A DNA stretch of 64,000 nt from positions 1 to 64,000 of the forward strand of contig JAUIDB010000006.1 of assembly GCA_030429235.1 (NCBI GenBank), in the 5' to 3' direction. Under the pieces are notes generated by a model. It had not been told where the DNA came from. It made no database searches and saw only the letters and a program-made list of their open reading frames with translations. Position 1 is the first letter of the stretch, and each line of letters starts with the position of its first letter. Shown in pieces: positions 1 through 10,292 of the stretch. A program made the translations under genes and the position numbers. Source of the stretch: Thermoanaerobaculia bacterium (GTDB lineage: Bacteria > Acidobacteriota > Thermoanaerobaculia > Multivoradales > JAIOJS01).

Positions 1-15
1 ACCGGCCAGCGGAAA

Positions 16-56
16 CCGAGGCTTCCCACTGGCCTCGGAAAACGCTTCGCGTTTCC
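16..56. repeat. Two adjacent short inverted repeats at the left edge
   Basis: CCGAGGC at 16-22 pairs with GCCTCGG at 32-38 across a 9-base loop. Bases 37-44 then pair with 50-56 around a CTTCG loop, with one bulged A. They may end transcription of a gene to the left of the window. No T-run follows, so this is weak. Confidence 0.35.
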
Positions 57-156
57 CGCAGCTCCCACAGGCTCGACGATGGCTGGTTGAGAGAAGCTCA
101 TACACCACGTCGGCGGACGCTACTCGGACCGGTCTAGGCGGAGGGGATCGATGAAG

Positions 157-192
157 TATCGGTCTATCGGTCCTGCGCCCTGCGCCCTGCGC
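157..192. repeat. Small tandem repeats upstream of the first gene
   Basis: TATCGGTC occurs twice in a row (157-164 and 165-172). It is followed, sharing one base, by three copies of CCTGCGC (172-192). The block lies about 45 bases upstream of the first coding sequence. It may be replication slippage or binding sites; nothing in the sequence decides. Confidence 0.6.
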
Positions 193-236
193 TCGGACGC
201 AGGTGACATGCGAATGTGGACAAGCAGAGGTTGAGA

Positions 237-611
237 ATGCAGTGTCAAGCTACTACCAAGCGCGGCTTTCCGTGTCGCATGGCAGCACTAGAGACCGGCT
301 GGTGTATCACTCACGATCCAGGCAGGACTGCTCTTAGAGAGGCCCATAGGAGAAGGGGTGGTCGTAATCGTAGGGCGCCTGATCTGCAGGTCTCTGAACC
401 CCGGGCATTGCTGCGCTCTGTCGAAGATGTTCGGGCCCTTCTCGAAGCGGTGGTCTCTGCGACCTGGCTACTCGAAAACTCTGCGAGACGCTCGCGAACG
501 CTGGCAACCCTGGCTGGTGTTGCCCTACGCGTTCTGGAAATGGGACAGCTAGAGGAGCGCCTGGCACAACTAGAAGACGAGTCGACGCAGTGTCCTGGAG
601 GCAGGGTTTGA
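237..611 (+). CDS. Small Cys/His protein, possibly mobile-element associated
   Basis: A 124-residue protein of unknown function. The N-terminus has C3, C13, C23 and H26 (C-x9-C-x9-C-x2-H), a likely metal site. It resembles the short phage and plasmid proteins with a C-A-T-x-x-G-x-P-C core followed by a CxxH segment, but ends in HDPG where that group usually has HGG. The ATG at 237 is preferred because AGAGG lies six bases upstream; a GTG at 216 would add seven residues. The rest is Arg/Glu-rich helix, perhaps coiled coil at the C-terminus. It overlaps the next gene by 22 bases, so the two are probably co-transcribed. Function is not assigned. Confidence 0.6.
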   Translation: MQCQATTKRGFPCRMAALETGWCITHDPGRTALREAHRRRGGRNRRAPDLQVSEPRALLRSVEDVRALLEAVVSATWLLENSARRSRTLATLAGVALRVLEMGQLEERLAQLEDESTQCPGGRV

Positions 612-856
612 AACTACCTCGTGGTGCGTCACTCACCGAGACTGGGAGCGAACTCGACGGGAACCTCGCTAGCCTGGAGCCACGGGGCCCAGTCCTGGGT
701 AGAGGGGATGAGATCGCGGAAACGTGGGCTCGCTTGCTCGCTCGCGGAGATCTGGACCCAAGGCTCCTGATTCTGGAGATCCACCGGCTCGTCTCATCCC
801 CCCGCGTGGCGCAGCGGTTGTTGCGAAGGGCTGGATGGCCTAGGGGCGGGGCGTGA
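590..856 (+). CDS. Hypothetical small protein, middle gene of a coupled trio
   Basis: An 88-residue protein with a GTG start inside the end of the preceding gene. Its stop overlaps the next start in a GTGA arrangement at 853-856. That coupling is the main reason to believe it is expressed, since the sequence has no recognisable domain. The second half is Leu/Arg-rich and likely helical. No strong ribosome binding site is visible, which fits translation by re-initiation. I do not recognise the family. Confidence 0.45.
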   Translation: MSWRQGLKLPRGASLTETGSELDGNLASLEPRGPVLGRGDEIAETWARLLARGDLDPRLLILEIHRLVSSPRVAQRLLRRAGWPRGGA

Positions 857-1650
857 CGAACTTCAAGATCGGCCAGCAGACCTGCCGGGATGGCAGTGGG
901 TCCGGTGGGTCTCCTCTTGAAGTTCAGATCAAGCGAGCGGCGCAAGAGGCTGAGACTCGCAGTTCAGCGAATAGTCTCCTGTCGATCCTCGAAATCTCCA
1001 TCGACGAGCGCTCCGAAGCTCTTGCCTCAGGGGACTTTCGCACCGTCAGCTGGGACTTCGCTCGCAACCTGAAGATGCAGCCCACTCTGCGGTGCCGGAG
1101 CGTCGACAGCGTCCTGGATTTCATTGATCCACTGCTCGACTCGCTCTTCTTGGAAGGTAGGCTTCCCTTTTCTCGTACCCACCAAGGCGACCCGTGGAGT
1201 GCAGCGTTGCTTGATGGGGAGCTATGGGATAGCGAGCCCCTAGAGGACTTCATGAGGTGTTGGCACAAGATCGCGCCGCCGCTCTTCGAAGTGGCGTTCC
1301 TCGCATCGAAGTCCCCTACTTATCAAGACCCTTGCGTTTTCGGGGAGGAACTCTCAGCCGATCGGAGGAGGAAATTCCGTCTGTTGTTGGCTTTTTGCTA
1401 TGAGCTTTCCGGTCTGCAGCCCACGCCAGGGAGGTCCTTTCCACTTCCAGTTGTGAAGCTAGCTCGCCTTCTCGATTCAGACCGAAGGACGACCGGTGGG
1501 TGGCTTGCCGAAGCCGTGCGGAGAGGATTCCTACTGAAGACGAAGGACTCCACAAGACCTAGGGGGCAGCGGAAAGGGCGGGCTGCAGAATACCGTTGGG
1601 CTTTGGAGACTACTCTTGACGGCCTGCAACCGACGAACGATAGCACCTAA
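853..1650 (+). CDS. Hypothetical protein with C-terminal winged-helix-like segment
   Basis: 265 residues. The last 80 read like a winged helix: a PLPVVKLARLLDSD segment, then T-x-x-W-L-x-x-A-V-R-R-G-F-L (recognition helix), then a basic wing ending in AEYRW. This arrangement is common in replication- or primase-associated proteins of phages and integrated elements, where the C-terminal domain recognises DNA. The N-terminal two thirds are unrecognised. The GTG start overlaps the previous stop by four bases. With its two upstream neighbours it forms a three-gene unit in the low-GC part of the window. The DNA-binding role is inferred from pattern only. Confidence 0.55.
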   Translation: MTNFKIGQQTCRDGSGSGGSPLEVQIKRAAQEAETRSSANSLLSILEISIDERSEALASGDFRTVSWDFARNLKMQPTLRCRSVDSVLDFIDPLLDSLFLEGRLPFSRTHQGDPWSAALLDGELWDSEPLEDFMRCWHKIAPPLFEVAFLASKSPTYQDPCVFGEELSADRRRKFRLLLAFCYELSGLQPTPGRSFPLPVVKLARLLDSDRRTTGGWLAEAVRRGFLLKTKDSTRPRGQRKGRAAEYRWALETTLDGLQPTNDST

Positions 1651-1761
1651 CCTCCTACCTCCTTCTACCTCCCTAACCCCCCAACAGGCAAGAGGGTCCT
1701 CTCGTGTTCCCACAACGCCCAGGGCCGTTCAGTTCTTCGTCGTACTGCTCGAGGCGAGAGT

Positions 1762-2169
1762 TTGGCTAGCCTGAACCAGAGAATCTTGAGGTTGGAGCGA
1801 GACCTTGCAGCTCAGCCTCGGATCACGAGTCGAGTTGTCTTTGCCCTTCCGGGCGAGTCCCGCGAGGAGGCAGTGGCTCGCCATATTCTCCGGAACCCGC
1901 AGGACGAAGGTCCTCACGTAGAGTTTCTGGTTGTCGGGCACGCTCCGTACAGAACGACTTTTTACAAGCTGGTGAGGAAGTTTCATCCGCTCGAGCAACT
2001 GGAGGGCTTGTCCGATGACTATCTCCGCGAACTCAGGGATCGGTGGGATGCCTCCATCGAAACGAGCGGGATGGCGTGCTTGGCGTCGGGCAAGCCAGAG
2101 GCGACTCGTGCCCGTCCTAGTAGCTACTTGCCGCCACGAGAACGAGATCCTGAGCCCTCTACAGGTTGA
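1762..2169 (+). CDS. Hypothetical protein
   Basis: 135 residues starting at TTG, with GAGG seven bases upstream. No signal peptide or membrane segment. The N-terminus is a short coiled-coil-like stretch (LNQRILRLERDL), followed by a compact alpha/beta-like region and a Pro/Arg-rich tail. Its last 46 bases overlap the 3' end of the convergent XRE regulator gene. I do not recognise the family. The 111 bases upstream contain no other gene. Confidence 0.45.
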   Translation: MASLNQRILRLERDLAAQPRITSRVVFALPGESREEAVARHILRNPQDEGPHVEFLVVGHAPYRTTFYKLVRKFHPLEQLEGLSDDYLRELRDRWDASIETSGMACLASGKPEATRARPSSYLPPRERDPEPSTG

Positions 2170-2420
2170 CCTCTCGTCGGGTGAAGACTGAGACCTTCGA
2201 CTAGCTCTTCAGGAGGTACCTCCAAGGCTGAGGCTATCCGCAGGAAGTTGAGGAGGGAGGGGTTTCGATGGCCTCGCTCAACTAGGCTAACGTACGTTCG
2301 GTCGAACCCAGCCTTGGCGGCCAACGCCTCTTGGGAGAGCCTCAGCGCTATTCTTGATTCCCGGACTCTCTGTCCGAACTGTCGAAGTGCGACCCGGCGG
2401 TCGTTGGTCTCTACTGCCAC
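2124..2420 (-). CDS. XRE-family transcriptional regulator
   Basis: A 98-residue HTH_3/Cro-C1 protein. The helix-turn-helix spans roughly residues 14-70, with the typical R-x-S-R-I-A-L-R-L-S-Q-E-A-L-A first helices, then T-Y-V-S-L-V-E-R-G and N-P-S-L-x-x-F-L-R-I-A-S-A-L. Such proteins are usually repressors of their own gene and of a divergent neighbour. Here the divergent neighbour is the Zn-ribbon gene at 2542, across a 121-base gap. The start is GTG. The short Gly/Arg/Ser tail overlaps the end of the gene at 1762-2169. The family call is firm; the target is inferred. Confidence 0.85.
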   Translation of the reverse strand: MAVETNDRRVALRQFGQRVRESRIALRLSQEALAAKAGFDRTYVSLVERGHRNPSLLNFLRIASALEVPPEELVEGLSLHPTRGQPVEGSGSRSRGGK

Positions 2421-2541
2421 TCTTCATGCTGGTTCCCCTGAGGACAGTTCGTCTACGGACAATGAGTCACACTCTGATAGGATTGTTGCTCTAGGCCGCA
2501 CCCCGAAGAAACCCAATACTACCGACTCAAGAACGCTGCGA

Positions 2542-3069
2542 ATGGCCAGTTGTAACTCCTGCGGAAAGAAGCGCCCTTTTGTCGAGGTTATGCCATGGAA
2601 GTGGGTCGAAGGCAGCCTCTTCTGTGACGAGTGTGCCAACCGCCTCGAGAACGAAAAGCGCGACCCGATTCGAGCAGCTAGGGCAGCCTTCGAGCAAGGA
2701 GAGCCGCTTTTTCAGCTGGCCCTTCCCCTAAGCGAGACCACCGGTGTGAGCGTGGGCATGGTCGGGGCCTTTTCGACAACAAGCACCACAGAGCACGGCT
2801 CGCTACTGAGTGGGATCGAGAGCGCGGGCTGGAGCCTAGAGCACGCTGCCTACGTCTACCGAGTTAAGGGAAGCGTCAGTCGGGACAAGCTCTTATCAAG
2901 CGGTCAGGAGGAGGCGATGCATGGCGAGATCGTCGGTGTATACATCTTCCGGAGGCGGGATAGCGAACAGTGCGCGGCAGCTCTCACGCCAGGGTCCGCT
3001 GAGTCGGATCCTGTGGGGCGTTCAACCTCATCCAGGGCGCTTCGATCAGAAGGGGCCTCGAATGAGTAG
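2542..3069 (+). CDS. Zn-ribbon plus DUF4177-like small protein
   Basis: 175 residues. The N-terminus carries two CxxC pairs (C4/C7 in CNSC, then CDEC) and is probably a zinc ribbon. The middle part (GIESAGWSLEHAAYVYR, then SGQEEAMHGEIVGVYIFRR) follows the pattern of small DUF4177-like proteins common in actinobacteria. The frame is open further upstream to 2248, but that would run antisense through the XRE gene, so the ATG at 2542 is preferred. The stop overlaps the next start by eight bases, so the SH3 gene is translationally coupled. The function of the family is unknown. Confidence 0.65.
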   Translation: MASCNSCGKKRPFVEVMPWKWVEGSLFCDECANRLENEKRDPIRAARAAFEQGEPLFQLALPLSETTGVSVGMVGAFSTTSTTEHGSLLSGIESAGWSLEHAAYVYRVKGSVSRDKLLSSGQEEAMHGEIVGVYIFRRRDSEQCAAALTPGSAESDPVGRSTSSRALRSEGASNE

Positions 3070-3577
3070 ATCGATTCTACTAGCCATATCACCGGTCTTC
3101 TTCACCATGGTGGTTGGACCGGCCGGCAGCTACGCAGCCGACTTCGTGTCCGTGACCTCCGCCGTTGCCAACCTGAGAGCATCCCCCTCTATCGATTCAG
3201 CTGTCGTCGCCAAAGTACCCCAGTCGACGACCTGCGAGCTTGCCGCGGTAAGAGGTGACTGGTTCGAGGTGGCTGCGTTCACCGGCGACTACCGCTACTT
3301 ACATTCCTCGGTGGCGCGTTCCGTCGGGCAAGCGCCGCCGCTCACCGATGAGCCGACAACTCTCGTCAGCTCTTGTCGAGGTTTTGTGGCGGCTGAGAAC
3401 CGTGCCATGAACGAAGCACTCGTCCTGGAACCGATCGACTTCGATCGACAGATTGACCTCGAATGGCGGCTGACCGATCGCTACAAGATGGCGGTGGCCC
3501 AGAAATATCGACTCCACCCGGCCCGAAGTGTCGAACTGACCCTGTGGTGTGCCAAGAATCAGTCGCGGTGGCGATAG
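3062..3577 (+). CDS. Secreted SH3-domain protein
   Basis: 171 residues. A signal peptide covers about residues 1-25 (hydrophobic core, AxA-type end before DFVSV). It is followed by a bacterial SH3 domain at about 27-85, with the hallmark VANLRASPSIDSAVVAKV and a W-F-E-V segment. SH3 domains of this type usually bind cell-wall peptides. The rest contains paired cysteines, compatible with disulfides outside the cytoplasm. The start is set by GAAGGGG six bases upstream and by an eight-base overlap with the preceding gene. The function beyond envelope binding is unknown. Confidence 0.7.
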   Translation: MSRSILLAISPVFFTMVVGPAGSYAADFVSVTSAVANLRASPSIDSAVVAKVPQSTTCELAAVRGDWFEVAAFTGDYRYLHSSVARSVGQAPPLTDEPTTLVSSCRGFVAAENRAMNEALVLEPIDFDRQIDLEWRLTDRYKMAVAQKYRLHPARSVELTLWCAKNQSRWR

Positions 3578-3616
3578 AGGCTCGCTCCAGCCCTCCTCTT
3601 TTCTGGGCCAAGTACA

Positions 3617-3672
3617 GGCCCGTAGGGTCTTCCCATCAGACTTCGTACGGCAGCTTCGGCCTAATACGGGCC
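3617..3672. repeat. Inverted repeat between convergent genes
   Basis: GGCCCGTA (3617-3624) pairs perfectly with TACGGGCC (3665-3672). The pair lies in the 126-base gap where the SH3 gene and the metalloprotease gene converge. It may act as a two-way terminator, but the 40-base loop and missing T-run make this weak. Confidence 0.35.
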
Positions 3673-3703
3673 GGATGCCAGCTCAGCGCTCTGTCCCCAG
3701 CGG

Positions 3704-4873
3704 CTACCATCTAGACAAGTCGCCGGATTCGAATCCATCTGCGAAGAGCTGGGGGCCGAAGTCCCAGGGGTAAGCGCTGTTCAGTCTCACTTCGAGAGGA
3801 AGCTTGCCTAGTGCCCGGACTATTGAGTAGTGCTGCGTCAGAGCCGGGCTGGGAACCGAGAAGGAGTAGTCCAATCGGACCAGTCGACACTCCGCAATCG
3901 GCCCAGGCCCGCCTGGGCCTGAGAGGTCTTCCAGGCCCACACTGATGGTTGACAGATGTGCATCTCCGTCGCACGGACCGTCGTAAACAACTTGGAGGGA
4001 GTAGTCATCAGACGTGCCCGAGTCTCTGTCTGCACCCGTCATTCCCATCCGAACCATGTTGACGTCGTCCGCAGTAAGGCCGGAGTAAGCCATTTCACGA
4101 GCAATACCGGAGTACATGACGCTCTGGCTGTTGGGGACTCCAAGGGACTCGCCAACCGCCCGGTTCGCACTAGCTGGCCAGGAGTGCCCTCCCGGGAGGC
4201 TGCTCAGAGTCCGGTCGAACGAACCGATGTCGATGACCGTAGCGTCGATTGCGAACGGATTGTTGTCGATCTTCCGGTACCAGGATATTGACTTGGCGCT
4301 CCCCTGTATTCCGTTGTGAAAGTCATCTAGCGTGCCTCGAATGCCATCAGTGCCGACCTCGATGGCGCCCGCCACCGCAGCCACGTCGGCTGAACGTGTA
4401 TAGCTCGTCTCTTCGAAGAAACCGTCCCATTGCTCATCCCATGTTCGGTTGATGTGATCGAGCCCCATGCCGCAGTGCCCGAGTTCGTGAAGCTGCGCTG
4501 AGTAGGAGTCGAAGGACCCAGCAGTTGGTGGAGTCTCTTCGATCAGAACACAGTTGGCGCAGTTCTCCGTTGTGGCCACCAAGTCGTTCCACGTTTGAAT
4601 CGCCTCGATGAGGCTGGGTTCGAGCTCAAGACTGTCATTCAACAAGCAGACCGACACCTCGACCTGATTCTCTACACCCGAGTAGCCGAACGGATGGACG
4701 ATTGAGAAGAATGTGATCGGACAGTCTTCCGGCGTTGGGCACGATGGGTGCTGCGTCACGGGCAGTGTCTCTCGGCAGCCGTTGTCGTCGCACACTCGCA
4801 CCTGGAGATAGGAGCCCCCGTGAGCGATTCCGGAGAGACCCAGCGCCAACAATCCAAGAAGGACTGGCTTCAC
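3704..4873 (-). CDS. Secreted zinc-metalloprotease-like protein with C-terminal GFESGD tail
   Basis: 389 residues. Signal peptide at 1-19 (GLSGIAHG cleavage region), many paired cysteines, and a central zinc motif HELGHCGMGLDH. This resembles the metzincin HExxHxxGxxH pattern but has one extra residue between the second His and the Gly. A Met-turn-like SVMYSG lies downstream. A peptidase role is therefore likely but needs proof. The protein ends in LFADGFESGDLSRW, a tail also found at the end of the protein at 58,702-60,621. The GTG start overlaps the stop of the upstream gene in a GTGA arrangement, so both are one operon. Confidence 0.7.
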   Translation of the reverse strand: MKPVLLGLLALGLSGIAHGGSYLQVRVCDDNGCRETLPVTQHPSCPTPEDCPITFFSIVHPFGYSGVENQVEVSVCLLNDSLELEPSLIEAIQTWNDLVATTENCANCVLIEETPPTAGSFDSYSAQLHELGHCGMGLDHINRTWDEQWDGFFEETSYTRSADVAAVAGAIEVGTDGIRGTLDDFHNGIQGSAKSISWYRKIDNNPFAIDATVIDIGSFDRTLSSLPGGHSWPASANRAVGESLGVPNSQSVMYSGIAREMAYSGLTADDVNMVRMGMTGADRDSGTSDDYSLQVVYDGPCDGDAHLSTISVGLEDLSGPGGPGPIAECRLVRLDYSFSVPSPALTQHYSIVRALGKLPLEVRLNSAYPWDFGPQLFADGFESGDLSRW

Positions 4874-5475
4874 CGGTTTCCCCTTTCCGATTCCGATCGA
4901 CTGCTGGCGATGAAGTGGTTGGCGACGAGTTCTTGAAGCCGTCGCAATGCGGACGCCTCGGTCAGCTCAGGATAGGCTCGTGCGTAGATCCTGGGATTGG
5001 TCAGGCGTGCTGTCGCGGTGTATGGAGCGCGTTCGCTGAGCCCTGGCCGCTCGTAGCGAATGAAGTTCATTTCAAGGACAACCGTCGACGAGTCAACTGA
5101 GATCGCTTGGTCGTGCCCGACCACTTCCCGAACACGCTCCGAAGTGAACTCCGCGAGACCAGAACGCACTGCGTGGTCAAGGATCTCGCTCGTTTCATCG
5201 AAGGTAAGGGCAACCTCCTCTGACTGCAGCACCTTGAGGTTCGAGTTGTCTACCCTTTCCCGAACCAAGCGGCCATCACCGTACAGAAGGAACTGGAACG
5301 CGGTTGCGTTTCCTAACCCGCCTCGTTCGGTCAAGAACAGCACGAGATCTGTAGGGTCGGTGCTTACCTCAAATGAGGCGGACTCGAAGTCCGGGCCACC
5401 ACTTGCAGGAGAGTGCACCTCCGGAGGTGGACCAAGCGTAAGCAACATAGTGGCAACTGCCAATACAGCTCTCAT
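4870..5475 (-). CDS. Secreted hypothetical protein, upstream of the metalloprotease
   Basis: 201 residues with an N-terminal signal peptide (MRAVLAVATMLLTLG). No recognised domain. The mature part has alternating hydrophobic strands (VLFLTERGG, FQFLLYGDGRLV) like a small beta-rich periplasmic protein, and ends in a charged helix. It is the first gene of a two-gene operon with the metalloprotease, coupled by a four-base overlap. It could be a propeptide-like inhibitor or chaperone for that enzyme; this is only suggested by the pairing. AAGGGGAAG lies just upstream of the ATG. Confidence 0.55.
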   Translation of the reverse strand: MRAVLAVATMLLTLGPPPEVHSPASGGPDFESASFEVSTDPTDLVLFLTERGGLGNATAFQFLLYGDGRLVRERVDNSNLKVLQSEEVALTFDETSEILDHAVRSGLAEFTSERVREVVGHDQAISVDSSTVVLEMNFIRYERPGLSERAPYTATARLTNPRIYARAYPELTEASALRRLQELVANHFIASSRSESERGNR

Positions 5476-5561
5476 CGTCTTCCCCTTTCCTCATTGAAAG
5501 TAGAAGAGTATCACGCGGATGAGAGGGCTGTGGCGAAAGACGGGATACTGTAGGGGCATTG

Positions 5562-8500
5562 ATGGACACAAGTGACTTGTTGCTCAATTCCAAGCTGCAG
5601 AGGCTTCTCTTGAAGCTTCCAGGAACTGGCAAGGAGTATGAGGAAGTTGTCAGGTTGGGGTTGGTGGAGGCCCTCGGTCGCAACTTGCGACTGGCCCGGT
5701 CCGGTTCCCAGTTCGGTGGGGACGTGGGAACCGGGACGAGCGGTCCGACAGTCCGGATCGAAGCCAAGCGTGTTTCGACACACCGCAGCCTAGACCAGCG
5801 CGCTCTACTGGGTGAAATCAGCGAAGCTCTGGACAGGTACCCGGATCTAGATCTCTGGGTTCTGGCTGCCTCCTGCGAGGTACCCGAGCAGATGGCCAAC
5901 GCGCTAGAACGGGAAGGCCAAAGCCGCGGCATCGGAATTGAGATCCTTGATGTTTCTTCGTCGAGGAAGAGCAAGCTCCCGCTCCTCTTGGCCAACGCCT
6001 GCGCCGAAGTCGTTGGGTACGTTGGCAAGGTCTGCGATGACTCGCTTGCGAACGAGCTGAAGTCAGTACTCGTGGAGATCGGCGCTCGGAACGACCTAGT
6101 GAATGAGAAGATAGTTGAGCCGGAGTGCCTTTTCGATCTCGTCGCCGAAAGGATGCGCTCGGTTCTTCGAGACTGTCTGTCCAAGAAGTCCGCGTCGCGC
6201 GCTCGTTTCGGTCAAGTCTTACGGGACCAGTCCTTCGTCAATCGTTCAGTTGCCTCTCAAGCACTTGATCTTTGGTGGGGGTCGGGCTGCCCCCCATCGG
6301 ACTTGCTATTGCTCTGTGGAGAGGAGGGGGATGGAAAGACTTGGGCTGCTTTTGACTGGGTCTCCAAGACTAGCGAGAGTGAGGGACTCCTTCCCTTGTG
6401 CCTAGTGGCCGGACATGCGGGCCCTAGCCCAAAGCTGGCTGCAGTACTGGCGGCACAACTTCACGAGAGTTTTCCAACCACTGGAGAGACTGTGTGGAAG
6501 ACTCGGTCGCAGCGTTGGCTTGCGTCGCCTTCGATTCGTTCACGGATCATCCTAGTGGCGGACGGTATCAACGAGCAGCCAGTATCCGGTTGGCGGCAAC
6601 TTGTCGACTCGATACTCGTCGACAGCTCCATTCTGAGTTCTCAGGTCGCTGAACAGCAGCAAGTACTTACTAGCCTTCCCGTGATTGTCACCTGCAGGGC
6701 CGGCTACTGGGACCAGATGTTCTCGCAGATTCCTCACTGGCCAGTCAACCGGCTGGAGCTAGGTCCCTTCTCTGAGCAGGAACTCCAAAGCTACCTGGCT
6801 TTCCATGGTCGGAGTAGCGATGAGTTCAGCTCTGAGGTTCATTCGCTATTGAAGAAGCCCCGCTACTCGAGTCTTGTGGTGACTCACTACGAACGGTTGA
6901 TCGCTTGTGGTGATATCACCATTGATCGGCTTCTGTATGAGGACTGGAAGGACCGCTACCAAAGGAACAGCAACCTCCCACTGGATGACACGAGCTTTCA
7001 GCAGTTGGTTCAAGAGCTTGCACGACAAGCCCTCAATGGAATCAGAGAGGTGCGAGTACAGCAGTTCCTCGGGCTGGTTCCCGAAGGGGATCCTGCACGC
7101 GTACTGTCTGAGCTTCAATCCAGTGGTGTCCTCTGTAGAACTCAAAATGGGGCCCTGCGAGTAGCACCTGAGCGCCTCTCCAACGCCCTTGGGCTGTTGT
7201 TGCTATCGGAACTCAAGAGAACGAGTCCTGCTGGGCGTGATGAGCTGATTCAGAAGTACTTCGAGCCCGGTGGCCTAGATGCTCATGCAGCGATCTGTTC
7301 AGCTGCGGTTTTTGCGGCTACGGTCGATTCAGTAGAGAACGACATCCTTGTTCAGCTCTTTAGTGCCTTCTTTCGTCTTCAGAATGTTCCGGATGCGGAA
7401 TGGGAGCGCATTCGGAGCTACTTTCCGATCCTTCCCGACGTCTATCGAGAGGTTGCCGAGAGGCTGGTAGCTGAACCGGAACTCAATCGGAGGGCGTTTG
7501 AGACTGTAGACTGGGCCTACCATCGATGGTGCGACAACCAGGATCTCCTAAGGACCATAGCGGAGCACTCGCAAAGGTGGTTGTCGTTTGTTCCACTAAG
7601 ATCACCAACATGCGATTCCCACGAATCGCAGTATCGAGAACATCTCCGGGAGCTACTCGGGGCAACTCCGACCCCAGGTACGTTCACGGCAAACGATGTC
7701 ACTCTTCACGTCATAGACTCGCCGCATCTCCGCAGGCTTTATGACCTCGCTCTTGGGCTTTTGTCAGCTCAGGCGACCGGTCTCCAGGCGTCTGTGTTGC
7801 GTACGTGGGCGCTAACTGATTCTGTCCAAGGCGAAACAAGCCGTGGTGCGGAGGTGGAGTGGCTAGTTCGTTTCCTCGACAAAGAAGCTAGCTCAAGCCT
7901 CCGGTCGGAGATCGAGTCCATGCTCACGGTGCCAAACGGAATCTGGCAATGGGCAGCCTACCGCCTCGCAGGCATGTTTCCCGACGGGAGCGCAAGTGAC
8001 CTCCAGGCCAAGGCCGATTACCAGCCACAAGGGGGCCTACTTGAGACCTGGCGATTGGATGACCCCTGCCGAGCTGGATTCTATCCCTGGAGGGATGAGG
8101 ACTGCTTGCATTGGTTGCGACGCGACGACATTGCCCCAGTCAGTAAGGCAAGAAGATTGGCGGGCTTCGCCGTTGACAGGGAGTGTGACTTTCCGGCTGA
8201 TCTCAAAGGACGAATCTCTAGAGAGCTGCGGCCGGTATTGGCGGAGTTCGCTGGTTTGGGTTTCCGACTCGGACGAAGCGCTGACCGAGGCAGATTCGAA
8301 TCCTGCGAGCCGGCGTTCGCAAGGTGGATCCCCGAGGACCTAGCAGTCGCGAAGAGAGCACACTTCGAACTCCTTTGCCGCGACTTTGATCGCGAGTCAA
8401 TAGAGAATCTGAGCGAGGAGAAGAGAGCAAGGGGGCATCTCGGAGCGGGCGACCTCGAGACAATCGCTCTGATCTTGAGAACTGAGGACTTTCGTAGGCT

Positions 8501-10058
8501 AGAGAGATTCTGGAAGCTGTGGAGCGACCAACCCGCGGACTTCCGGATACCCGGAGGGAACAGCCTGGATGGGACCGAGGTTGACCTCTTCCGAATCCTC
8601 CTGCTCGGGGAAGGGCCGCAGGTTGTTGACTTGATAATGGAGCGCCCCGCAGATGCGTTCAACGCTAGGAGCTTCATCGACCCGCTTCCAGTGGGGCTAG
8701 CAACCGACCAACTTCGAAAGCTCTGGAATCATCTGCTGAGAGACCGAGGGGAACTGGTCCCGAAGCTGTTCTTCCTGGTATTCGAAGAGCTGTCACTTAC
8801 TACTGTCGAGCGCCAGTTGATAGTTGATGCAGGAAGCGAGTATGGAAGAGAAGGGGAGAACTTGACGCGTATTTTCGCGCTACTGAAGGGGGACAGGGAA
8901 TTGGTACGCCTGCTTTCTCGAGAGCGGCGAGGCATTCTCTTTGAGTTCGTTTCAGAGCTGCACGGGCTCCAGACGGGGTCGATTCCAACTGATCTCCCCT
9001 TGGACCAACTCAGATCGATCTCTGCTCCCTTCCTGAGCCACATCGTAGCCTCCCGGGAGGACGACCCTAGGGATGCTCTTGAACTCGCAAGCTCTCTGCG
9101 AGTGTTCGTTGCCGGCCAGGCCGGTTTGACTCGCTGGGATCCTCGAGCAGATCCGCGCGCAAGCCAACCGTTCTCTAGGGCCGGAGTGCAACGAGCGCTG
9201 GATGCAGACCCCGGGCTGGCTAGTGATCTTCTCGACCGCCTGACGGAATGGCAGGGTCGCACGTCACCGATCGAGAACAGCTACTGGCTGTACGTTGCGA
9301 TCTGTGAGTGTCTGCTAGATAGTGCTCCAGAATCGGGAAGTCGGCTGCTGGGACGACTCATCGACAGCAGGATTGGGAAGCGGGGCGCGTCCCAGGCACC
9401 GTCTTCTCTCGTGGCGCTCATGGGTCGAACCAGTCATCATCAGCAAGTCGCATCGCTACTGGATTCCTGCCTAGACCTCTGCTTTACAGACTCCGCGCTA
9501 TCGAGATTCTCTCTGTGCTTTCCAAAGGGGCAGGACAGCTGGCTCTGGGCGGCCATTGTGCGAGACCTGAACTCGGAGAGACCGCTCCTCAGGGCGAGGG
9601 CCATGACTCTCGCAGGGTTCGCCCTCGACACCGAACGAGCCGTTGAGACTTTGGAGCACCAGAAGCGTTGTGGGTGGGAAGAGAGTGTCCGCCAAGCGTC
9701 CGTGTCCGCTGCGAAACAGGGTGAATGGTCTCGAGGCTGGTTCTGTCAGTTCCTGTCTAGCCAAGAGCGCAGTCTAGGCTGGGCGGCTTTCAGTCTGTTC
9801 GGAGAGTGCGTGGATAGTCGCTTTGTCCATTGGCTGCAACCTACTCTTGAGGAACATGGATACTCGTATCGAGACACGTCACCTCAGATGCGGCACCTGC
9901 GTGTCAACCACGACCGTCTTCTCACTCGACTGGAGTCGACCGAGAAGAGTCTCGCGAGACAGTTTTGCCACAGCACAGTGAGTGAGAGTATTTTTCCCTG
10001 GATGCCACAGTGGAGGCTTTCAGTTCGCAGAACAAGGCTACTAGCAAACCCTGGTTGA
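5562..10058 (+). CDS. PD-(D/E)xK nuclease-like / STAND-NTPase fusion, candidate antiphage (Avs-like) protein
   Basis: 1,498 residues. Residues about 20-130 have the restriction-endonuclease fold signature: an early Glu-rich helix, GGD at about 52-54 and EAK at about 67-69, i.e. D...ExK as in Mrr-like nucleases. Residues about 245-450 form a P-loop NTPase: Walker A GEEGDGKT (about 253-260), Walker B ILVADG (about 330-335) and the VTCR sensor strand (about 376-379), followed by an L-x-P-F-x-x-x-E-L segment typical of STAND/NACHT ATPases. The remaining 1,000 residues are mostly helical, as expected for a repeat-type sensor. In known Avs proteins the C-terminal domain senses a phage protein, the ATPase oligomerises and the N-terminal nuclease cuts DNA. 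Here that is inference. The ATG at 5562 has AGGGG five bases before it. Confidence 0.75.
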   Translation: MDTSDLLLNSKLQRLLLKLPGTGKEYEEVVRLGLVEALGRNLRLARSGSQFGGDVGTGTSGPTVRIEAKRVSTHRSLDQRALLGEISEALDRYPDLDLWVLAASCEVPEQMANALEREGQSRGIGIEILDVSSSRKSKLPLLLANACAEVVGYVGKVCDDSLANELKSVLVEIGARNDLVNEKIVEPECLFDLVAERMRSVLRDCLSKKSASRARFGQVLRDQSFVNRSVASQALDLWWGSGCPPSDLLLLCGEEGDGKTWAAFDWVSKTSESEGLLPLCLVAGHAGPSPKLAAVLAAQLHESFPTTGETVWKTRSQRWLASPSIRSRIILVADGINEQPVSGWRQLVDSILVDSSILSSQVAEQQQVLTSLPVIVTCRAGYWDQMFSQIPHWPVNRLELGPFSEQELQSYLAFHGRSSDEFSSEVHSLLKKPRYSSLVVTHYERLIACGDITIDRLLYEDWKDRYQRNSNLPLDDTSFQQLVQELARQALNGIREVRVQQFLGLVPEGDPARVLSELQSSGVLCRTQNGALRVAPERLSNALGLLLLSELKRTSPAGRDELIQKYFEPGGLDAHAAICSAAVFAATVDSVENDILVQLFSAFFRLQNVPDAEWERIRSYFPILPDVYREVAERLVAEPELNRRAFETVDWAYHRWCDNQDLLRTIAEHSQRWLSFVPLRSPTCDSHESQYREHLRELLGATPTPGTFTANDVTLHVIDSPHLRRLYDLALGLLSAQATGLQASVLRTWALTDSVQGETSRGAEVEWLVRFLDKEASSSLRSEIESMLTVPNGIWQWAAYRLAGMFPDGSASDLQAKADYQPQGGLLETWRLDDPCRAGFYPWRDEDCLHWLRRDDIAPVSKARRLAGFAVDRECDFPADLKGRISRELRPVLAEFAGLGFRLGRSADRGRFESCEPAFARWIPEDLAVAKRAHFELLCRDFDRESIENLSEEKRARGHLGAGDLETIALILRTEDFRRLERFWKLWSDQPADFRIPGGNSLDGTEVDLFRILLLGEGPQVVDLIMERPADAFNARSFIDPLPVGLATDQLRKLWNHLLRDRGELVPKLFFLVFEELSLTTVERQLIVDAGSEYGREGENLTRIFALLKGDRELVRLLSRERRGILFEFVSELHGLQTGSIPTDLPLDQLRSISAPFLSHIVASREDDPRDALELASSLRVFVAGQAGLTRWDPRADPRASQPFSRAGVQRALDADPGLASDLLDRLTEWQGRTSPIENSYWLYVAICECLLDSAPESGSRLLGRLIDSRIGKRGASQAPSSLVALMGRTSHHQQVASLLDSCLDLCFTDSALSRFSLCFPKGQDSWLWAAIVRDLNSERPLLRARAMTLAGFALDTERAVETLEHQKRCGWEESVRQASVSAAKQGEWSRGWFCQFLSSQERSLGWAAFSLFGECVDSRFVHWLQPTLEEHGYSYRDTSPQMRHLRVNHDRLLTRLESTEKSLARQFCHSTVSESIFPWMPQWRLSVRRTRLLANPG

Positions 10059-10071
10059 GCCGGAGTCTTCT

Positions 10072-10093
10072 CCTCGGTCTCGGGCTACCGAGG
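10072..10093 (+). terminator. Hairpin after the STAND gene
   Basis: A perfect 7-bp stem, CCTCGGT/ACCGAGG, with an 8-base loop, 13 bases after the stop of the STAND gene. No T-run follows, so it would be a weak or factor-dependent terminator. Confidence 0.35.
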
Positions 10094-10216
10094 GAGCCCC
10101 TATGGCCACTCTATGGCCCCGAACTTACCTCCGAGTTACCTTCAGCCTGCCGGCAACGTGCTCCGGTTTCGGATGAGGAAGCCGCCAATCTATTTGCGGA
10201 TAGGAGAGTTGGAAGG

Positions 10217-10292
10217 TGGTAGCCCGTACGGGATTCGAACCCGTGTTACCGGCGTGAGAGGCCGGCGTCCTGGACCCCTAGACGAACGGGCC
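10217..10292 (-). tRNA. tRNA-Glu (anticodon CTC)
   Basis: Read on the minus strand the 76 bases fold as a full cloverleaf. The acceptor arms are GGCCCGT and ACGGGCT, with a G-U first pair. The anticodon stem CCGGC/GCCGG holds the loop CTCTCAC, giving anticodon CTC. The T arm contains GGTTCGAATCC, and CCA is encoded. The 3' end faces the low-GC island at 1-10,058, as expected for an element integrated at a tRNA 3' end. No second copy of the tRNA 3' end was seen within the window. Confidence 0.95.

Follow-up and report, generated by a model that had tools for sequence, protein, structure and literature searches.

Avs1 to Avs4 recognise terminase, portal or another protein of the phage and then kill through their nucleases (PMC12931631). 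Protection by bNACHT25 and bNACHT32 requires their PD-(D/E)XK nuclease, and phage sensing by bNACHT25 is indirect, via host DnaJ (PMC12169576). A bacterial CARD-NLR-like system is reported to control gene-transfer agents (PMC13236601). The protein described here is encoded within the window, i.e., the whole 64,000-nucleotide stretch analysed, which comprises the first 64 kb of contig C14 and starts at the first base of this contig. In architecture the protein resembles an animal or plant immune receptor, with a domain that would cut DNA, an ATP switch of the NLR type and, at the C-terminus, a long helical region as putative sensor. By analogy with the systems above, the protein probably acts on its own as an NLR-like receptor against phage, with its gene on an island integrated at a tRNA, and kills infected cells by DNA cutting.

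Results

An earlier note on this DNA had placed an open reading frame of 1,498 residues at 5562-10058. This frame is real, with an ATG at 5562 and 1,498 codons plus a stop ending at 10058 on the plus strand (Table 1), and is not due to chance, as ORFs in the loci holding relatives match it lengthwise (66 of them, at 79 loci, are 1,370 aa or longer). The upstream gene (4870-5475) is directed away from the receptor gene and the downstream tRNA-Glu gene lies on the opposite strand; hence, the receptor gene stands alone. Searches with the full-length protein as a single query produced no match in Pfam, PADLOC or NCBIfam and no convincing match among PDB sequences. The case was, therefore, built on relatives and folds.

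Table 1. Positions of the features in the window (residue numbers refer to the 1,498-residue protein)
Feature	Position	Strand	Basis or remark
Nuclease-NACHT-solenoid protein gene	5562..10058	+	1,498 aa and stop codon; relatives include 66 ORFs ≥1,370 aa
Mrr-like PD-(D/E)xK nuclease, residues 1-145	5562..5996	+	Conservation; Mrr_cat in relatives; model (48-58 with low confidence)
Nuclease residue codons	D54 5721-5723; E67 5760-5762; K69 5766-5768	+	Also E27, Q50
NACHT/STAND NTPase, residues 225-460	6234..6941	+	Pfam NACHT E = 8.8e-4; fold matches; conservation
Helical and winged-helix-like part of STAND module, residues 461-655	6942..7526	+	Model; NLRP3/NLRP9 alignments extend to residue 655
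HEAT-like alpha-solenoid, putative sensor, residues 656-1498	7527..10055	+	Model; Foldseek; weak HEAT profile signals
tRNA-Glu (CTC), putative integration target	10217..10292	-	3' end toward receptor gene
46-bp att core	10221..10266		Exact copy at G000:C16:184887-184932 beside integrase gene
Right-hand part of low-GC island	1..10220		GC; runs past contig end at position 1

Distant relatives were detected by tblastn on plasmids of Azospirillum, Sphingobium, Sphingomonas, Rhizobium, Ensifer and Candidatus Manganitrophus. A scan of genome contigs with the one protein found no relative, unlike a scan with a four-sequence alignment (residues 1-468 and three plasmid relatives), which detected the 79 loci in a collection representing 84,980 species by one genome each. 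A seven-sequence alignment was dropped as a query for being too diverse. Removal of near-copies reduced the 66 ORFs to 58 sequences, which were aligned with the window protein to give a set of 59. These 58 sequences span Pseudomonadota, Thermodesulfobacteriota, Cyanobacteriota, Acidobacteriota, Myxococcota, Spirochaetota and others. Family members were present in 3 of 148 close genomes, and family matches, several via the NACHT part only, in 9 of 396 genomes across the phylum. The nearest copy, from a genome of the same order, is split across two contig ends and has 52% identity over 149 residues of the N-terminal part and 40% over 296 residues of the C-terminal part. A sphingomonad cassette is common to Sphingobium and Novosphingobium at 88-97% DNA identity. 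No match to the family was found in phage records, and none was found in E. coli genomes by a DNA search with one enterobacterial relative. The family is sparse or patchy and mobile, with plasmid carriage among the relatives.

A nuclease signature of the form D...ExK had been proposed for the N-terminus, and D54, E67 and K69 were confirmed as its residues in the alignment of 59 sequences. Together with E27 they make up the catalytic motif of the window protein (E...D...ExK). E27, Q50, D54 and E67 are kept in 58 of 58 nuclease-bearing sequences; D54 is present in all 59 aligned rows, K69 is replaced by R in L111 alone, and E67 is absent solely in L057, which has a TIR domain at this point. Weak matches to the Mrr_cat profile were obtained for 6 of the 59 members (best E = 2e-4) and also for two further relatives outside these six. 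In a model of residues 1-655, the ExK lies on a strand and is followed by helix, strand, helix and strand, a predicted order of elements that fits the one expected for PD-(D/E)xK. The fold on which the earlier proposal depended is a probable one, supported by the motif, the weak Mrr_cat matches and the element order; the stretch around D54 (residues 48-58) is poorly modelled, with a pLDDT <50 in the model of residues 1-655, in which the nuclease domain was folded together with the NTPase.

The exception, L057 from Geotalea toluenoxydans, is the sole aligned row lacking the nuclease residue set. In this protein a TIR_2 domain (E = 2.1e-12) occupies residues 7-129, ahead of the NACHT part and C-terminus typical of the family, and the protein is nested in a clade of nuclease-bearing members (support of 99 in the tree). 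As judged from sequence, the TIR domain in the nuclease's place is an effector swap. This exchange bears on an alternative in which the Mrr-like domain cuts directly bound modified or foreign DNA, in the manner of type IV restriction, and the P-loop part is a motor or an allosteric ATPase. Modified DNA is the substrate of Mrr and McrBC enzymes and the nuclease found here is Mrr-like, but replacement by TIR would be senseless for a restriction enzyme and the ATPase matches NLR/STAND folds best, so that restriction of this type is a very unlikely function.

Fusions to DNA-binding domains were observed in two relatives. In L122, HTH_3 is fused at the N-terminus of the family protein, and in the nearest relative (G014; L016:9300-10040), a PadR-type HTH is in frame ahead of the nuclease domain at a contig end. 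The PadR fusion was dropped as evidence, since the N-terminal part is at a contig end and runs into a stop 39 bases short of that end. Such HTH-fused forms may be self-regulating or DNA sensing. They could also suggest that the family consists of STAND-type regulators or housekeeping proteins in which the nuclease domain is a relic. However, both HTH-fused relatives retain the nuclease motif, no HTH match was obtained for the window protein in the profile search, the catalytic residues are near-invariant and the distribution is sparse and mobile; a regulator with a relic nuclease is the least probable of the readings considered, to the point of being hardly tenable.

The central part had been described as a STAND/NACHT ATPase, and this description is sustained by NACHT profile matches and by a predicted fold like those of Avs4, CED-4, Apaf-1, NLRC4 and NLRP3. 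Walker A comprises residues 253-261 (G253..GKTW261). Among the 59 aligned sequences, the Walker A lysine and D334 of Walker B, with N337 following, are invariant or nearly so, and P433-R434 are conserved within the NACHT/STAND part. The Walker B motif of NACHT domains is usually DGxD, with a second acidic residue. NACHT and bNACHT proteins differ in this respect from the window protein, in which the motif is DGxN and the second acidic residue is lacking; DGxN is found in 58 of the 59 members and E in one. For residues 1-655, the Pfam NACHT match (E = 8.8e-4) falls short of the curated cut-off; the same profile was matched in 26 of 59 members with a best E of 1.3e-9. The model of residues 1-655 (model 1) has a pLDDT of 87.2 and a pTM of 0.85. 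With this model, Foldseek ranked Avs4 in complex with phage portal first (E = 3.4e-7) and CED-4 and Apaf-1 next. VIA-align placed NLRC4, NLRP9 and NLRP3 first (Z of ∼13, rmsd of ∼4-6 over ∼260-340 residues) and gave Z values of 10.9 for Avs4 and 10.8 for Avs5. The genome that contains the window has a second short NACHT-like frame (294 aa) at G000:C6:106013-106264, which aligns with the NACHT portion of the Avs2 profile (E = 3.3e-4).

The long helical C-terminus reported previously was confirmed, being modelled with good confidence as a single long helix array (model 2, residues 600-1498; pLDDT of 85.5, pTM of 0.89). It had been called unlike anything recognised, and the window protein's own C-terminus has no Pfam match. 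The best Foldseek matches of model 2 were CAND1 and karyopherins (E of ∼4e-5), while VIA-align gave Z values of at most 8.8, at which only a common arrangement can be claimed. Profile searches yielded a weak match of the C-terminus to designed HEAT-type proteins (E = 0.002), and HEAT_2 matched weakly in the C-terminal parts of 3 of 51 members (best E = 0.0026). The ∼840-residue C-terminus is, on modelling, predicted to be one long HEAT-like alpha-solenoid, as distinct from a proven HEAT domain. D1310, W1327, D1418 and R1420 are strongly conserved in the family alignment, and the near-invariance of these C-terminal residues would fit a sensor of a conserved target. Avs proteins were not listed by VIA-align for the C-terminal model; with a best Z of only 8.8, this absence excludes nothing.

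A position in a low-GC island beside a tRNA had also been proposed. Both elements were confirmed, as GC is 0.56-0.61 in the first 10 kb of the window versus mostly 0.62-0.70 beyond and the tRNA-Glu gene lies at 10217-10292. The companion statement that no integrase is adjacent is true within the window but misleading, because position 1 of the window is also the first base of C14. At the end of contig C16 of the same genome, positions 184887-184932 hold a 46-bp exact copy of the 3' part of this tRNA-Glu, in the same orientation and without a complete tRNA. A 435-aa frame for a tyrosine recombinase starts ∼60 bases inward of this repeat (Phage_integrase, E = 2.5e-20), which places an integrase gene beside a second, directly oriented copy of the tRNA 3' part. 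The next frame encodes an AlpA-like, excisionase-like HTH protein, and the GC of C16 drops from ∼0.69 to 0.59, as in the first 10 kb of the window. The repeat and integrase on C16 constitute the usual layout of a tRNA-integrated element, with the window gene at the far end. Very probably, the receptor gene is at one end of an island integrated at tRNA-Glu, the middle of which is absent from the assembly.

The end of C16 (L045:16600-16773) contains a 126-bp sequence that recurs at the C82 end and, in reversed orientation, where C8 begins (L137, L138). This repeat is probably an insertion sequence, and its location just behind the AlpA-like gene accounts for the break of the assembly at the C16 end. 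A direct C16-C14 junction is not claimed, as the repeat that closes C16 has no counterpart in the 215 unique bases with which C14 opens; at least one piece must, therefore, be missing, and the two island ends are connected by inference. Relatives were searched for an unoccupied tRNA-Glu site between matching flanking genes, and none was found. In contig C148 of G001 (L126:1515-2035), tRNA-Glu is followed by repeated copies of a sequence resembling the left island flank on C16, and these repeats contain the tRNA 3'-like string AGCCCGTACGGG. In this same-genus genome, the left-flank-like sequence by tRNA-Glu belongs to a dispersed repeat and the order of genes is not maintained; the repeat may act as a supply of integration sites. 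Two further genes lie on the minus strand of the island region. Positions 3704-4873 encode a 389-aa protein with HELGHCGMGLDH, a matrixin-like zinc metallopeptidase motif (HExGHxxGxxH), and no Pfam match, and positions 2124-2420 encode a 98-aa XRE/HTH_3 regulator matching restriction-modification control proteins.

No known defence gene is visible beside the window copy, in agreement with the earlier note. Plasmid relatives variously adjoin VapBC, AAA+RloB and an integrase, or XamI R-M and SAVED. In 103 genes near relatives, PADLOC models for MADS and DISARM components, type IIG R-M, SAVED nuclease, DRT and AriA each matched at least two genes, whereas matches in 83 control genes were mainly to the PD-T4-6 model set. 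A rough comparison gave 223 PADLOC families in the 103 neighbour genes versus 33 in the 83 control genes, a contrast that is weak support, as it counts models rather than genes and is based on naive gene calls and controls from other genomes. In Azospirillum, the gene for a second STAND protein of 1,735 aa (L008:4550-9757; nSTAND1, E = 7e-4) precedes that of the relative by 118 bp in the same orientation, and the similarity of this protein to the family lies in the NTPase. No conserved partner gene was evident, and a partner gene reading was dropped because neighbouring genes differ among relatives.

Discussion

The domain order, conserved residues, predicted fold, family, effector swap and location at an island end form the established part of this description. 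The layout, the conserved chemistry, the NLR/Avs fold, the exchange of effectors and the mobile, patchy distribution together point to an NLR-like abortive-infection receptor. Ligand sensing, oligomerization, DNA cleavage and an anti-phage role would follow by analogy with Avs1-4 and bNACHT25. At rest, the NACHT core would hold nucleotide. Binding of a phage protein, or of a phage-caused change in a host protein, by the C-terminal alpha-solenoid would switch this core to an oligomer, which would cluster the N-terminal Mrr-like nuclease domains. The clustered nucleases might then cut phage and host DNA, and the infection would end by abortive death.

The same architecture could respond to a trigger other than phage, such as plasmids, gene-transfer agents or a disturbed host protein, with phage defence being secondary. 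The indirect sensing of bNACHT25 through host DnaJ (PMC12169576), the reported control of gene-transfer agents by a CARD-NLR-like system (PMC13236601) and the presence of the gene itself on a mobile island would all suit such a trigger. We regard it as unlikely, although less so than type IV restriction: relatives adjoin ordinary anti-phage genes, and the nearest structural match is a sensor of a phage protein.

If the anti-phage receptor reading is correct, a widespread class of NLR-like phage sensors has been missed by PADLOC 2.0.0 of 2023, and the exchange of nuclease and TIR on a common NACHT-plus-solenoid body follows, in bacteria, the same modular principle as the NLRs of animals and plants. 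The conserved residues of the C-terminus make the trigger experimentally approachable. This case also indicates that a window beginning at a contig end can conceal the integrase of the island to which a gene belongs. A bolder proposal, advanced tentatively and at rather less than even confidence, is that these proteins form an unnamed, separate NLR-like clade in several phyla, distinguished by a DGxN Walker B, a HEAT-type sensor, swappable nuclease or TIR effectors and a phage trigger other than those of Avs proteins.

Relative to what is known, sequence comparisons suggest that the protein is a variant of an Avs/bNACHT-like receptor lying outside the PADLOC Avs families. PADLOC (version 2.0.0 of 2023) has no family for the window protein at E≤1. 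The Avs2 profile was matched by 4 of the 59 family members (best E = 1.3e-9), and the match covers positions 338-479 of 1504 in the profile, i.e., NACHT only, at the single locus with a readable extent. Membership of Avs by sequence was, hence, rejected, and the protein is termed Avs-like rather than an Avs because no PADLOC Avs model matches it. Of the Avs layout proposed earlier, the order of effector, STAND NTPase and long helical sensor in one protein stands, while a sequence match to Avs profiles does not. Avs4 (PDB 8dgf) and Avs2 (PDB 9o4e) likewise have an N-terminal effector, a STAND NTPase and a long helical C-terminal sensor in ∼1,500 aa, but their sequence likeness to the window protein is confined to the NTPase, with the weak Avs2 profile match falling in the NACHT part. 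Avs sensors are described as TPR-like, whereas the C-terminus found here looks HEAT-like. In Avs5, the abortive outcome is NAD+ loss instead of DNA cleavage.

The closest named counterpart is WP_228167503.1 of Sphingobium yanoikuyae ('NACHT domain-containing protein'), which is of equal length and layout and aligns over the whole protein but is only 23% identical overall; its gene is plasmid-borne and adjoins VapBC, AAA+RloB and an integrase. In bNACHT25 and bNACHT32 (clade 6), a PD-(D/E)XK nuclease is fused to NACHT, as in the window protein, but the C-terminal domain is a helical NCH1 (PMC12169576) instead of a ∼840-residue solenoid. No NCH1-type Pfam match was obtained in the window protein or in 51 C-terminal parts, using a library of uncertain NCH1 coverage. 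Animal NLRs (NLRC4, NLRP3 and NLRP9) and CED-4/Apaf-1 have LRR or WD40 repeats where the window protein has a HEAT-like solenoid, carry other effectors and show 11-16% identity, yet with Z values of ∼13 over ∼290-340 residues they are similar to it in predicted NTPase fold and arrangement.
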